This document shows, one piece after another, positions 22,313 through 28,068 of a stretch of 64,000 bases of DNA. The position numbers and the translations under genes were made by a program. The stretch comes from Micromonospora violae (GTDB lineage: Bacteria; Actinomycetota; Actinomycetes; Mycobacteriales; Micromonosporaceae): positions 2,170,001 to 2,234,000 of the forward strand of contig NZ_SHKK01000001.1 of NCBI RefSeq assembly GCF_004217135.1, written 5' to 3'. Below the pieces are notes generated by a model, which was not told the DNA's origin, searched no databases, and saw nothing but the letters and a program-made list of their open reading frames with translations. Numbering within the stretch: the first letter of the stretch is position 1; every line of letters begins with the position of its first letter.

Positions 22313-23005
22313 TCAGGCCTCGCCGAAACGGTCGGAGAGGGCGTAGCGGAGCAGGACCACGTCGCCGATCTGGCGGGCCTCGACCAGGTGGGCGCGCCGA
22401 CCCGGGTGCCAGGGGAAATGACCCTCGCCGACGAACCGGGGCGCCCGACCGTCACCGACGAAGAACGGGGCGACGACCAGGTGCAGTTCGTCGGCGAGCC
22501 CGGCGGTGAGGAACTGGGCGTGCACCGTCCCGCCGCCCTCCACCATCAACCGCGCCACGCCCCGCGCGGCCAGGTCGGTCAGCAGCCATGCCGGGTCGAC
22601 AGGGTCGCCCGCGTCGATCACGGTGGCGAGTCGGCCGACCCGTTCCTGGGTCTTCTCCAACGCGCCGCTGGCGCAGTAGACGAGCCGGGTCGGATCACCG
22701 GCGGTGAAGAAGCGGGCGGCCGGGTCGAGGTCACCCTGGGCGGTCAGGGTGACCTTGGTGGGCGAGGCGGGTCGACCGGCCGCCACCCGCTCGGCCTGGC
22801 GGGTGGGTGAGCGCACCAGCAGCCGAGGGTTGTCGCGTCGGACGGTGGCGGCGCCGACCAGGATGGCATCGCAGCTGGCCCGGACCGCGTCGACCCGATC
22901 CAGGTCGTCCTCGTTGGAGAGCAGTAACCGCTGCTCGGAGGCGTCGTCGATGTACCCGTCGATGGAGGTGGCACAACTCAGCAGCACGTACGGCCGCCGG
23001 CTCAT
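22313..23005 (-). CDS. RibD C-terminal-type (DHFR-fold) pyrimidine reductase
   Basis: 230-residue cytosolic NADPH-dependent reductase of the RibD_C family. LLSCATSIDGYIDD opens the first strand, AILVGAATVRRDNPRLLVR is the cofactor/substrate helix, and ARLMVEGGGTVHAQFL is the phosphate loop. In riboflavin synthesis this fold reduces the ribosyl side chain of the GTP cyclohydrolase II product to ribityl. No deaminase domain is attached and no lumazine or riboflavin synthase is nearby. The start overlaps the GTP cyclohydrolase II stop by four bases, tying the two steps together. It is the last gene of the seven-gene operon. Confidence 0.85.
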   Translation of the reverse strand: MSRRPYVLLSCATSIDGYIDDASEQRLLLSNEDDLDRVDAVRASCDAILVGAATVRRDNPRLLVRSPTRQAERVAAGRPASPTKVTLTAQGDLDPAARFFTAGDPTRLVYCASGALEKTQERVGRLATVIDAGDPVDPAWLLTDLAARGVARLMVEGGGTVHAQFLTAGLADELHLVVAPFFVGDGRAPRFVGEGHFPWHPGRRAHLVEARQIGDVVLLRYALSDRFGEA

Positions 23006-23709
23006 CGGGAGCCGGGCCGCTCAGGAGTACGACCGGCAAGCACATCCGGCGCCTCGGCTGCCTCGACCTCCGCCGCCTCGACCTCCGCCGCCTTGGCCGC
23101 CTTCGCCGCCAGGTAGTCCGCGTTGGCCGCCGAGAGGAAGACGCTGGTGAGCACCCGTTCGGTCACGTCCACGCCCAGCCGGGTCAACTGCTCGGCCTTG
23201 TCCGGGTTGCTGCTCAGCAGTCGGATCCGCGGCACGCCCAACGTGGCCAGCATCTGCGCGGCGACGGTGTAGTCCCGCTCGTCCTCACCCCGGCCCAGGG
23301 CGACGTTGGCCTGGTAGGTGTCCAACCCGGCGTCCTGCAACGCATACGCGTCCAGTTTGGCGTACAACCCGATGCCCCGGCCCTCCTGCCGAAGGTAGAG
23401 CAGGAAACCTCCGGTCTCGGCGATCCGCTGCACCGCCTCGCGCAGTTGCGGCCCGCAGTCGCAGCGTTCGCTGCCGAACACGTCGCCGGTCAGGCACTCG
23501 CTGTGCGGACGGACCAGCAGGGCTTCTCCCCCGGCGGCGGCCCGGTCCAGGGCACCCGCCCAGTCGCCGAGGCCGAGGGCCAGGTGCTCCCGACCGTCCA
23601 CCAGGCCCTTGAAGGTGAACACCCGGGCGGTCGTTCGGTAGCCGTCGGGAAACGCCAGCGGCACCGTGACCTGCGTGCGGATCGTGGCAACCGGCAATGC
23701 TTCGGGCAT
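23002..23709 (-). CDS. ribA: GTP cyclohydrolase II
   Basis: 235-residue zinc enzyme opening the guanine ring of GTP to 2,5-diamino-6-ribosylamino-4(3H)-pyrimidinone 5'-phosphate, formate and pyrophosphate. Zn ligands are Cys72, Cys83 and Cys85 (SECLTGDVFGSERCDCG). LLYLRQEGRGIGL and AYALQD follow; Tyr122 of AYALQD aligns with E. coli RibA Tyr105, the residue that is Met in the divergent S. coelicolor paralogue SCO6655. The Tyr is kept here, so full turnover is expected. LLSSNPDKAEQL closes the domain. The tail carries an Ala/Glu-rich repeat (AAKAAEVEAAEVEAAE). ATG 23709 follows GAAGGAG. It lacks the fused DHBP synthase (RibB) common in housekeeping versions. Confidence 0.9.
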   Translation of the reverse strand: MPEALPVATIRTQVTVPLAFPDGYRTTARVFTFKGLVDGREHLALGLGDWAGALDRAAAGGEALLVRPHSECLTGDVFGSERCDCGPQLREAVQRIAETGGFLLYLRQEGRGIGLYAKLDAYALQDAGLDTYQANVALGRGEDERDYTVAAQMLATLGVPRIRLLSSNPDKAEQLTRLGVDVTERVLTSVFLSAANADYLAAKAAKAAEVEAAEVEAAEAPDVLAGRTPERPGSR

Positions 23710-23767
23710 GGGACTCCTTCGTCCGGCGCCACCGCCATCCGGCGACGCGTACGGTCTCACAACCGAC

Positions 23768-26634: not shown

Positions 26635-27035
26635 AGCGACCGCTCGTAGCTCGCCCAGGCGATGTGCGACTCGTGCAGGGTGACCGTGATGCCGGTCAGG
26701 TCGCGGGCCCCGGCACCCAGTTGACCGGCGTGCACCCGCTCGACCAGCCGGTCCGCGACCGTACGGGCCAGCACCTCCGTCGTGGTGTTCACCCCGGCGA
26801 AGGCCGCCTCGTCGTCGAGGTTGCGGTAGGTCAGCTCGCCCAGCACGGCCCGCAGCTGCTCGGTGGCCAGGCCGATGTCCACCACGATGCCGTCGGCGTC
26901 CAGGTCGGGCCGTCGGAACGTCGCGTCCACCACGAACGTCGCGCCGTGCAGGCGTTGGGCGGGCCCGAACACCTCGCCCCGGAAACTGTGGGCGATCATC
27001 ATGTGGTCCCGAACGGTCACGCTGAACACGGTCAC
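26631..27035 (-). CDS. 6-pyruvoyltetrahydropterin synthase/QueD-like protein with altered metal site
   Basis: 134 residues, normal PTPS/QueD length (T-fold). The frame of the family is clear: an N-terminal strand, MIAHSF (His16 as first zinc ligand), LHGATF (His30 as second), [21 protein letters not shown] and C-terminal [11 protein letters not shown] with the pterin-anchoring Glu. The usual CxxxHGH becomes AxxxHGA: both the catalytic Cys and the third His ligand are missing. His11 (DHMMIAH) might substitute. Chemistry therefore may differ from PTPS or QueD. GTG 27035 overlaps the dehydrogenase stop and follows GGAGA. Confidence 0.8.
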
Positions 27036-28015
27036 TCTCCGTCGTCGTAGGTGATGAGGTGGCAGAGGGCGGGCAGGTCACCCGAGCTCAGTCTGGCGAG
27101 CACGTCGGGCAGCTCCGCGAAGCGGGACGCACCGGTGATCAAGGCGTCGAAGGCCGGGTCGTCGAGCAGGTCCAGGGCGAGCGCCAGCCGGTCGGCGTAA
27201 CTGCGCCGTCCCCGTCGGGCGGGCGCCACCATGCCGACCTGGCTGCTGCGTACGGTGAGTCGACCGGAGTGGAACGCGCCACCCAGCGACACCTGCACCG
27301 CGCGGTCGCCGTACCAGCTCAGCTCGATGACCGTGCCCTCCGGCGCGAGCAGGTCCAGCGACTGTTGCAGGCCGGCGGCGGTGGCGCTGGCGTGCACGAC
27401 CAGGTCCCGGTCACCACGGGCGTCGGCCGGGTTGGCGAAGTCGACACCGAGGGCCCCGGCCACGCCCGCGCGACGCGCGTCGGTGTCGACCAACTCGACC
27501 TGCACGCCGGGGAACCGCGCGAGCAGCGCCGCGACGCAGCAGCCCACCATGCCCGCGCCGATCACGGTGACCCGGTCCCCGACCAGCGGCGCCGCGTCCC
27601 ACAACGCGTTGACGGCGGTCTCCACGGTGCCGGCGAGCACGGCCCGGGCGGGCGGCACGTCGTCCGGCACCGGCACCACGGCGCTGGCCGGCACGACGTA
27701 CGCGCTCTGGTGCGGGTGCAGGCAGAACACCGTCCGCCCGAGCAACTCCGGCGGGCCCTGATCGACCACGCCGACGTTGAGGTAGCCGTACTTCACCGGG
27801 CCGGGGAAGTCGCCCTCCTGAAACGGCGCGCGCATCGCGGCGTACTGATCGGGGGGCACCTGGCCGGCGAAGACCAGCGTCTCGGTGCCCCGGCTGACCC
27901 CGGAGTAACTGGTCCGGACCAGCACCTCGTCGGGGCCCGGGGCGGTCAGCGACACCGGCCGGATCTCCGCCGCACCGGGTTCGCGCACCCAGCAGGCGTA
28001 CGCCTCGCGGTTCAC
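27032..28015 (-). CDS. Zinc-type medium-chain (MDR) alcohol dehydrogenase-like protein
   Basis: About 327 residues, MDR fold. [11 protein letters not shown] takes the place of the catalytic-zinc Cys segment. [11 protein letters not shown] and [12 protein letters not shown] lie in the GroES-like domain. [20 protein letters not shown] is the NAD(P)-binding glycine turn, with ELVDTDARR at the strand end. The catalytic Cys (usually in GxCxTD) is not apparent, so zinc dependence is doubtful. First gene of the seven-gene operon. GTG 28015 has GAGGTG upstream; GTG 28030 is an alternative adding five residues. It would supply a redox step on the nucleotide-derived or glycosylated intermediate. Confidence 0.78.
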
Positions 28016-28068
28016 CGTCGCGCACCTCACCTCTGCTTCGGGCCAGAACCGATCGGCCAGGTCGGGAT

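Follow-up and report, generated by a model that had tools for sequence, protein, structure and literature searches.

A conserved actinobacterial PTPS-IV gene cluster in Micromonospora violae and its possible role in diverting a GTP-derived pyrimidine

What might an actinobacterium make with a GTP cyclohydrolase II (GCHII) and a RibD-type reductase that share an operon with a glycosyltransferase, a methyltransferase and a membrane protein? The question is raised by a 64,000-nucleotide stretch of the Micromonospora violae genome (assembly GCF_004217135.1, contig NZ_SHKK01000001.1, positions 2,170,001-2,234,000 of the forward strand; hereafter the window), which corresponds to C1:2170001-2234000 of the 7.14 Mb host genome (G000). 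Open reading frames and profile searches place seven open, co-directional genes on the minus strand, from 28030 to 22313. From 5' to 3' they encode an MDR dehydrogenase, a PTPS-like protein, a GT4 glycosyltransferase (GT), a methyltransferase (MT), a PF03706 membrane protein (TM), GCHII and a stand-alone RibD_C reductase (RED), in the order and of the families given by an earlier, sequence-only reading of this DNA. Assignment to Micromonospora agrees with relatives that share 97% identity in PTPS and 93% in the methyltransferase. We read the operon as the version, found in Micromonospora, of a PTPS-IV pathway conserved among actinobacteria, with a Tyr-type GCHII as its front end; the pathway proposed below is, taken as a whole, about as likely as not. 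The compound by which the pathway is entered is very probably 2,5-diamino-6-ribosylamino-4(3H)-pyrimidinone 5'-phosphate (APy), and its product is in all likelihood something other than riboflavin or F420.

The gene set recurs widely. A scan of one genome per species with the PTPS protein confirmed at least 474 relatives, of which the best 80 were kept; together with regions L141 and L142 these form a first set of 82 loci. A class-level PTPS search, which matched 57 of 394 genomes, supplied 40 further, held-out regions, reduced to 37 when three that duplicated earlier loci (L160, L192 and L194) were dropped. L153 and L154, which cover only short parts of the L155 and L156 clusters, are uncounted, and phylum-search PTPS matches in other contexts (L128-L132 and L138-L140) were excluded from the cluster counts. 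All 119 loci were chosen by PTPS, and some contigs end early, so that the gene counts are lower bounds: MDR and GT are each present in 118, TM in 106, MT in 104 and GCHII in 93. The set is seen in Micromonospora, Salinispora, Actinoplanes, Asanoa, Streptomyces, Pseudonocardia, Amycolatopsis, Marmoricola and others. The sole exception for MDR and GT is L078, a Streptomyces fumigatiscleroticus contig in which PTPS stands with no searched partner gene in 14 kb, as a solitary copy or through an assembly break. A lineage of another class (f18) has RED-MDR-PTPS-GT in eight loci (L123, L124, L126, L127 and L134-L137) and RED-MDR-PTPS in L125, identity to the best query being 30-42% in MDR, PTPS and GT and 50-56% in RED; in all nine a divergent gene read as FolB-like adjoins RED. 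The distant class-level relatives L187, L188, L189 and L133 keep MDR-PTPS-GT; L133, L188 and L189 have no GCHII, MT or TM within the stretch retrieved, and in L187 RED and GCHII lie on the opposite strand. In L166, L172 and L173 a two-gene insert separates GT from MT, the L166 pair being an MFS transporter and a PF04672 methyltransferase.

The identity of the entry compound is suggested by an exchange of GCHII types among these clusters. Cys54, Cys65 and Cys67 (E. coli numbers), which we take to be the zinc ligands, and Arg128, whose role is likewise assumed, are conserved in 69 of 69 GCHII rows from the first-set loci and the host's own copies. Position 105 of E. coli RibA, at which Tyr presumably marks an APy-forming enzyme, varies on alignment: it is Tyr in the window GCHII and in the Micromonospora, Salinispora, Actinoplanes, Asanoa and Marmoricola clusters, Met in those of Streptomyces and Amycolatopsis, and His in three Pseudonocardia clusters. 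By this mark the window enzyme is predicted to form APy. Spoonamore et al. reportedly found in 2006 that S. coelicolor SCO6655, with Met (Met120 there), makes formylated FAPy and not APy, and that a Met-to-Tyr change restores APy.

A creatininase-family gene (PF02633; 219.9 bits for the L048 protein) occurs in the Streptomyces and some of the Pseudonocardia clusters. In the first set, 73 loci extend 6.5 kb or more behind PTPS: 36 of them have a Tyr-type GCHII and none of these a creatininase, 29 have a Met or His GCHII and 29 of 29 a creatininase, and 8 have no GCHII in the stretch. The Tyr/creatininase prediction was written down before the held-out regions were fetched; there, the ten Tyr clusters have no creatininase (0/10) and the 16 non-Tyr clusters (Leu in six, Met in five, His in four and Gln in one) all have one (16/16), in 15 cases inside the stretch and in L177 (G742) as a 77% identical gene about 10 kb from TM, just outside it. 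Over the 93 GCHII clusters this amounts to 48 of the Tyr type, none with creatininase, and 45 of other types, all 45 with it (44 in the stretch); read in the other direction, 48/48 clusters without creatininase have Tyr at this position, and clusters that carry one have Met, His, Leu or Gln there. The 26 loci without a detected GCHII fall outside this count; a creatininase is present in one, L063. None was found in the host genome, and among 11 genomes with mapped Tyr-type clusters five gave no match to the cluster creatininase and six distant matches only (34-42% identity), with one further 36-residue piece at 56% identity among those six.

A tree of 49 of the 93 cluster GCHIIs has a non-Tyr clade (support 92/88), a Tyr clade (93/86) and a group of GCHII-RibD_C fusions from three Pseudonocardia loci (100/100), the first two unstarred and the deep order open; in those loci (L036, L046 and L051) GCHII is fused in-frame to RibD_C inside the PTPS-IV cluster. 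That different GCHII lineages serve one core points to a shared product, APy, and the exchange of types supports the earlier suggestion that a GTP-derived pyrimidine is diverted here. According to part of PMC9478397, BrbF, a creatininase-annotated protein, has FAPy formamidase activity, as does archaeal ArfB. From its co-occurrence with non-Tyr GCHII, we infer that the creatininase of the relatives removes the formyl group from FAPy. Searches of the open-access PMC literature listed no paper recognisable as naming a product for the cluster or as describing the creatininase/GCHII match; subscription papers lay outside that search, so the exchange, new here, is reported without a claim of priority.

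Several observations weigh against this account. Each trait changes only about twice on the PTPS+MDR tree, so the 93 clusters are not independent cases, and an independent-pair test comes to one or two pairs, which puts 0.05 out of reach. The best NCBIfam models for the cluster creatininase are MftE and creatininase, and the ArfB model NF033501 gives 40.4 and 32.4 bits against a cut-off of 180. For FAPy production by a Met-type GCHII the account depends on the report for SCO6655. GCHII is missing from the stretch in 26 of the 119 loci, MT or TM from some, and RED from 33 of the 45 non-Tyr clusters; a CDP-alcohol phosphotransferase (PF01066), called upon below for a lipid link, is missing from the window and from 15/119 locus stretches.

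RED is present in 47 of the 48 Tyr clusters, and its absence from most of the others means that a ribityl step is not general. When 12 genomes were searched for a RED homologue, G541 had one in its cluster and the other 11 at best RibD-type matches of 29-36%; six of these (G128, G742, G581, G590, G599 and G641) represent mapped non-Tyr clusters and five are not fully mapped. Against TIGR01508 (archaeal-type 2,5-diamino-pyrimidinone phosphate reductase) RED scores 122.9 bits, below the curated cut-off of 186.45. Solved relatives of RED bear the name 2,5-diamino-6-ribosylamino-pyrimidinone phosphate reductase and similar ones, and the ribitylaminopyrimidine of the sequence-only reading is on that basis likely in the window lineage, but cannot be extended to all clusters: where RED is missing, the ribityl step may be missing too or may be left to RibD.

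The PTPS protein carries the FGPAQ signature (F, G, P and A in 120/120 rows of the class clade, Q in 117/120) and has PF00925 and PF01872 as neighbours, the two features by which PTPS-IV is recognised in COG0720. FGPAQ is named as the PTPS-IV signature in a section of PMC5445326 that also records PF00925 and PF01872 in the neighbourhood, with 561 sequences in the network, and the kind of cluster is therefore not new. PTPS-I (QueD), PTPS-II and PTPS-III have the motifs CxxxHGH, CxxxxxHGH or ExxHGH (PMC5041015, in part); the window protein reads AQRLHGA, and a PTPS-I or PTPS-III role was set aside. Ala takes the place of the PTPS-I Cys in 120/120 class and 10/10 f18 rows, and 119 of 120 class rows read HGA instead of HGH; the second His is kept in all ten f18 rows, the f18 proteins retaining HGH and not the catalytic Cys. 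A Glu near the C terminus is invariant (120/120 class and 10/10 f18 rows). From PTPS structures we take this Glu to be the pterin anchor. With these residues, the protein probably binds a pyrimidine or pterin, and standard PTPS chemistry is unlikely for it. Its only solved match is SCO6650 of S. coelicolor (3D7J), aligned over residues 3-134, and the paper on that structure is said to conclude the same of SCO6650. We know of no reaction for a PTPS-IV protein and of no product for a PTPS-IV/GCHII/RibD_C neighbourhood.

The MDR protein, judged to lack its zinc ligands against what we take to be the usual MDR motif, has weak polyol-dehydrogenase-like matches by sequence. The MT model is good (pLDDT 88.6) and its structure matches are generic methyltransferases, so that assignment of a substrate from the fold was dropped; among the 120 matches listed in the MT homologue search nearly all are from Micromonospora, and these served for alignment only.

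A link to the membrane is suggested by the CDP-alcohol phosphotransferase, which is encoded in 104 of the 119 loci. In 95 of these MDR is no more than 1 kb away, the two genes being on opposite strands in 83 and co-directional in 12; in 11 of those 12 loci the phosphotransferase stands between GCHII and MDR. The distance is greater in the remaining nine. Close relatives of the window locus (L003, L004, L005 and L007) also lack it. A homologue in the host genome, 63% identical, is found at C1:2380585, some 180 kb away from the operon, and has an LtaS-like gene (PF00884) as its neighbour; in the region examined (L151, G000:C1:2372000-2391000) this pair, at about 6.6-9.4 kb, stands beside FkbM/ASCH-type and M24 peptidase-family genes. 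LtaS-like genes are found in only 32/82 and 15/37 loci, and we do not claim them as core. Phosphatidylinositol phosphate synthases offer an analogue for the acceptor, which by that comparison may be a ribityl or ribosyl phosphate here. The position of the phosphotransferase near MDR in most clusters supports, without showing, the membrane linkage proposed earlier, and its absence from the window tells against it; a lipid-linked product is, we think, not far from an even prospect.

The pathway that we propose runs as follows. GCHII very probably converts GTP to APy, here through the Tyr-type enzyme alone; in relatives the non-Tyr enzyme would halt at FAPy and the creatininase-family protein would take off the formyl group. 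In the window lineage RED would then reduce the ribosyl to a ribityl chain on a ring that has not been deaminated. The operon encodes no deaminase, so the 2-amino-4-oxo ring would be kept, and it could sit in the T-fold pocket by way of the invariant Glu. Next, and more tentatively, the PTPS-IV protein and MDR might modify the side chain or form a pterin-like ring; a pterin ring in the final product is a doubtful though reasonable guess. GT would add a sugar and MT a methyl group, the phosphotransferase would join the polyol or polyol phosphate to lipid, and TM would carry the product across the membrane. In its fullest form the proposal is that actinobacteria make an unrecognised kind of membrane lipid, with a GTP-derived pyrimidine or pterin, glycosylated and methylated, as its headgroup. 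APy would come from one of three interchangeable GCHII front ends and be reworked by MDR and by a PTPS-IV protein in which the canonical metal and catalytic residues are no longer present; the dedicated phosphotransferase would couple it to an activated lipid, and it would be moved outward, perhaps to act as a membrane-bound redox or light-absorbing cofactor. This fullest form is speculative and, taken whole, unlikely.

Among the alternatives, the one that survives best is a soluble product, a pterin or pyrimidine that bears a sugar; TM would then act in export, and the phosphotransferase would have some other purpose. Cyanobacterial pterin glycosides provide a parallel, a PTPS fold and a GT lie within one operon, the methyltransferase fold is generic, and the phosphotransferase is outside the operon here and mostly on the other strand (83/119); its proximity to MDR in 95/119 loci, and its co-directional place between GCHII and MDR in 11, argue the other way. 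A soluble product is a tenable minority view.

A second, regulated riboflavin supply, formed by GCHII and RED that lie by chance beside an unrelated glycosylation operon, is very unlikely. Both enzymes catalyse riboflavin-type steps and sit at the operon end after short gaps, and the core occurs without a detected GCHII in 26/119 loci. The host, however, already has a complete rib operon of its own (RibD-RibE-RibBA-RibH, at about C1:990-994 kb), so the window GCHII is not its only ribA; the genome totals are one further GCHII (inside the rib operon), 13 RibD_C matches and one PTPS. The sequence-only reading, which had staked itself on a conserved set and a second ribA, stands on both points. 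It was also right that the window operon has no deaminase, DHBP synthase, lumazine synthase or riboflavin synthase. No homologue of the host RibB, RibE, RibH or RibD deaminase domain was found in the 119 loci (E up to 1e-6), in a search that detected the host's own rib operon as a positive control and two unrelated loci (L130 and L131), and riboflavin duplication was rejected as the main reading on these grounds. Gene order also speaks against a chance neighbourhood: in 11 loci of one family GCHII is the first operon gene, before the phosphotransferase and MDR, and in the nine loci of the distant f18 lineage RED lies 5' of MDR-PTPS.

With F420, the starting point is an unpublished involvement of PTPS-IV in its synthesis, mentioned in a passage of PMC5041015. 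CofD is above cut-off in 316 of the 394 class genomes and PTPS present in 57, which leaves 259 or more with CofD and no PTPS match. Conversely, five PTPS genomes have weak CofD-like matches only (G008, G639 and G710) or none (G457, 84% complete, and G579). PTPS occurrence does not track the F420 markers, and this mismatch makes F420 an improbable general purpose. An accessory supply line of extra ribityl-pyrimidine for the deazaflavin is accordingly the least likely reading, highly improbable even though the host has CofD and GCHII with RED could provide an F420 precursor. To our knowledge F420 synthesis has no use for GT, MT, TM or the phosphotransferase.

The coordinates of the operon are collected in Table 1. 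Four of the six junctions had been described as ATGA/GTGA overlaps, and four-base overlaps are indeed present at MDR/PTPS, PTPS/GT, GT/MT and GCHII/RED, the first of them dependent on the start chosen: it exists only with a PTPS start at 27035, and the GTG at 27029, where the alignment of many PTPS homologues begins, leaves a 2-base gap. For GCHII the ATG at 23709 is more likely than the mechanically called GTG at 23898, and the TM/GCHII junction is therefore a 58-base gap; that of MT/TM is 66 bases. A consensus promoter and terminator scan found nothing. Elsewhere in the window, a FAD/NAD(P) oxidoreductase fused to a SAM methyltransferase (29525-31330, plus strand) is divergent from a helix-turn-helix cupin regulator (29083-29898, minus strand), and a long open reading frame (17674-20682, minus strand) has an Hsp70 domain and PQQ/BamB-type repeats.

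Table 1. Features of the operon, in window coordinates
Feature	Position	Strand	Basis or remark
MDR dehydrogenase, BchC-like, usual zinc ligands missing	27032..28030	-	present in 118/119 loci
PTPS-IV T-fold protein	26631..27029 (start 27035 possible)	-	PF01242; best solved match 3D7J, SCO6650
FGPAQ, PTPS-IV signature; Ala at place of PTPS-I Cys	26955..26969	-	signature from a section of PMC5445326
GT4 glycosyltransferase	25588..26634	-	PF13692, PF00534; best solved matches 3c4q/3c48, PimA-type lower
Class I SAM-dependent methyltransferase	24773..25591	-	PF13649 (Methyltransf_25)
PF03706 membrane protein (flippase-like, LPG_synthase_TM)	23768..24706	-	profile matches
GTP cyclohydrolase II, Tyr type	23002..23709	-	PF00925 (GTP_cyclohydro2)
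TAT codon, Tyr at E. coli Tyr105 position	23344..23346	-	alignment
Stand-alone RibD_C reductase (RED)	22313..23005	-	PF01872, 149.6 bits; best solved matches 5xux, 6p8c
23-bp inverted repeat, 96% complementary, 3' of RED; possible terminator	22224..22269	.	repeat search

The exchange of Tyr-type GCHII for a non-Tyr enzyme plus creatininase points to the entry compound and makes an open annotation assayable. It also offers a possible reason why a Streptomyces GCHII should reportedly form FAPy, namely that its deformylase partner is encoded next door. If the lipid link is true, actinobacteria common in soil and the sea would turn out to make a new cofactor-like lipid. PTPS-IV proteins are numerous, with 561 sequences in one network (PMC5445326, in its section on them) and one solved structure (3D7J).

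Among known systems, the nearest in the host is its own riboflavin operon, which shares a GCHII domain and a RibD_C domain with the window set; unlike it, the window set has no deaminase, DHBP synthase, riboflavin synthase or lumazine synthase. SCO6655, the reported FAPy-forming enzyme, is like the window GCHII that of a PTPS-IV cluster, and differs in its reported Met where the window has Tyr; should SCO6655 group with the Streptomyces loci of the tree, the two would come from different GCHII lineages. SCO6655 occurs in PMC2853524, and SCO6652 has a single mention, as a hypothetical protein, in a transcriptome table of PMC3610822. AGeNNT cluster-node 62 (PMC5445326) and SCO6650/3D7J have FGPAQ, PF00925 and PF01872 in common with the window operon; the section on that node mentions no product, creatininase, Tyr switch or CDP-alcohol phosphotransferase, and the window GCHII is of the Tyr type. 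Finally, the route of archaeal ArfA, ArfB and reductase and of bacterial BrbF, as outlined in part of PMC9478397, leads from GTP through FAPy to APy and then to a reductase without deamination, which would be the logic of the RED-bearing relatives. That route feeds riboflavin, whereas the window cluster has neither a deaminase nor a later rib enzyme and would use a single enzyme for the first step.

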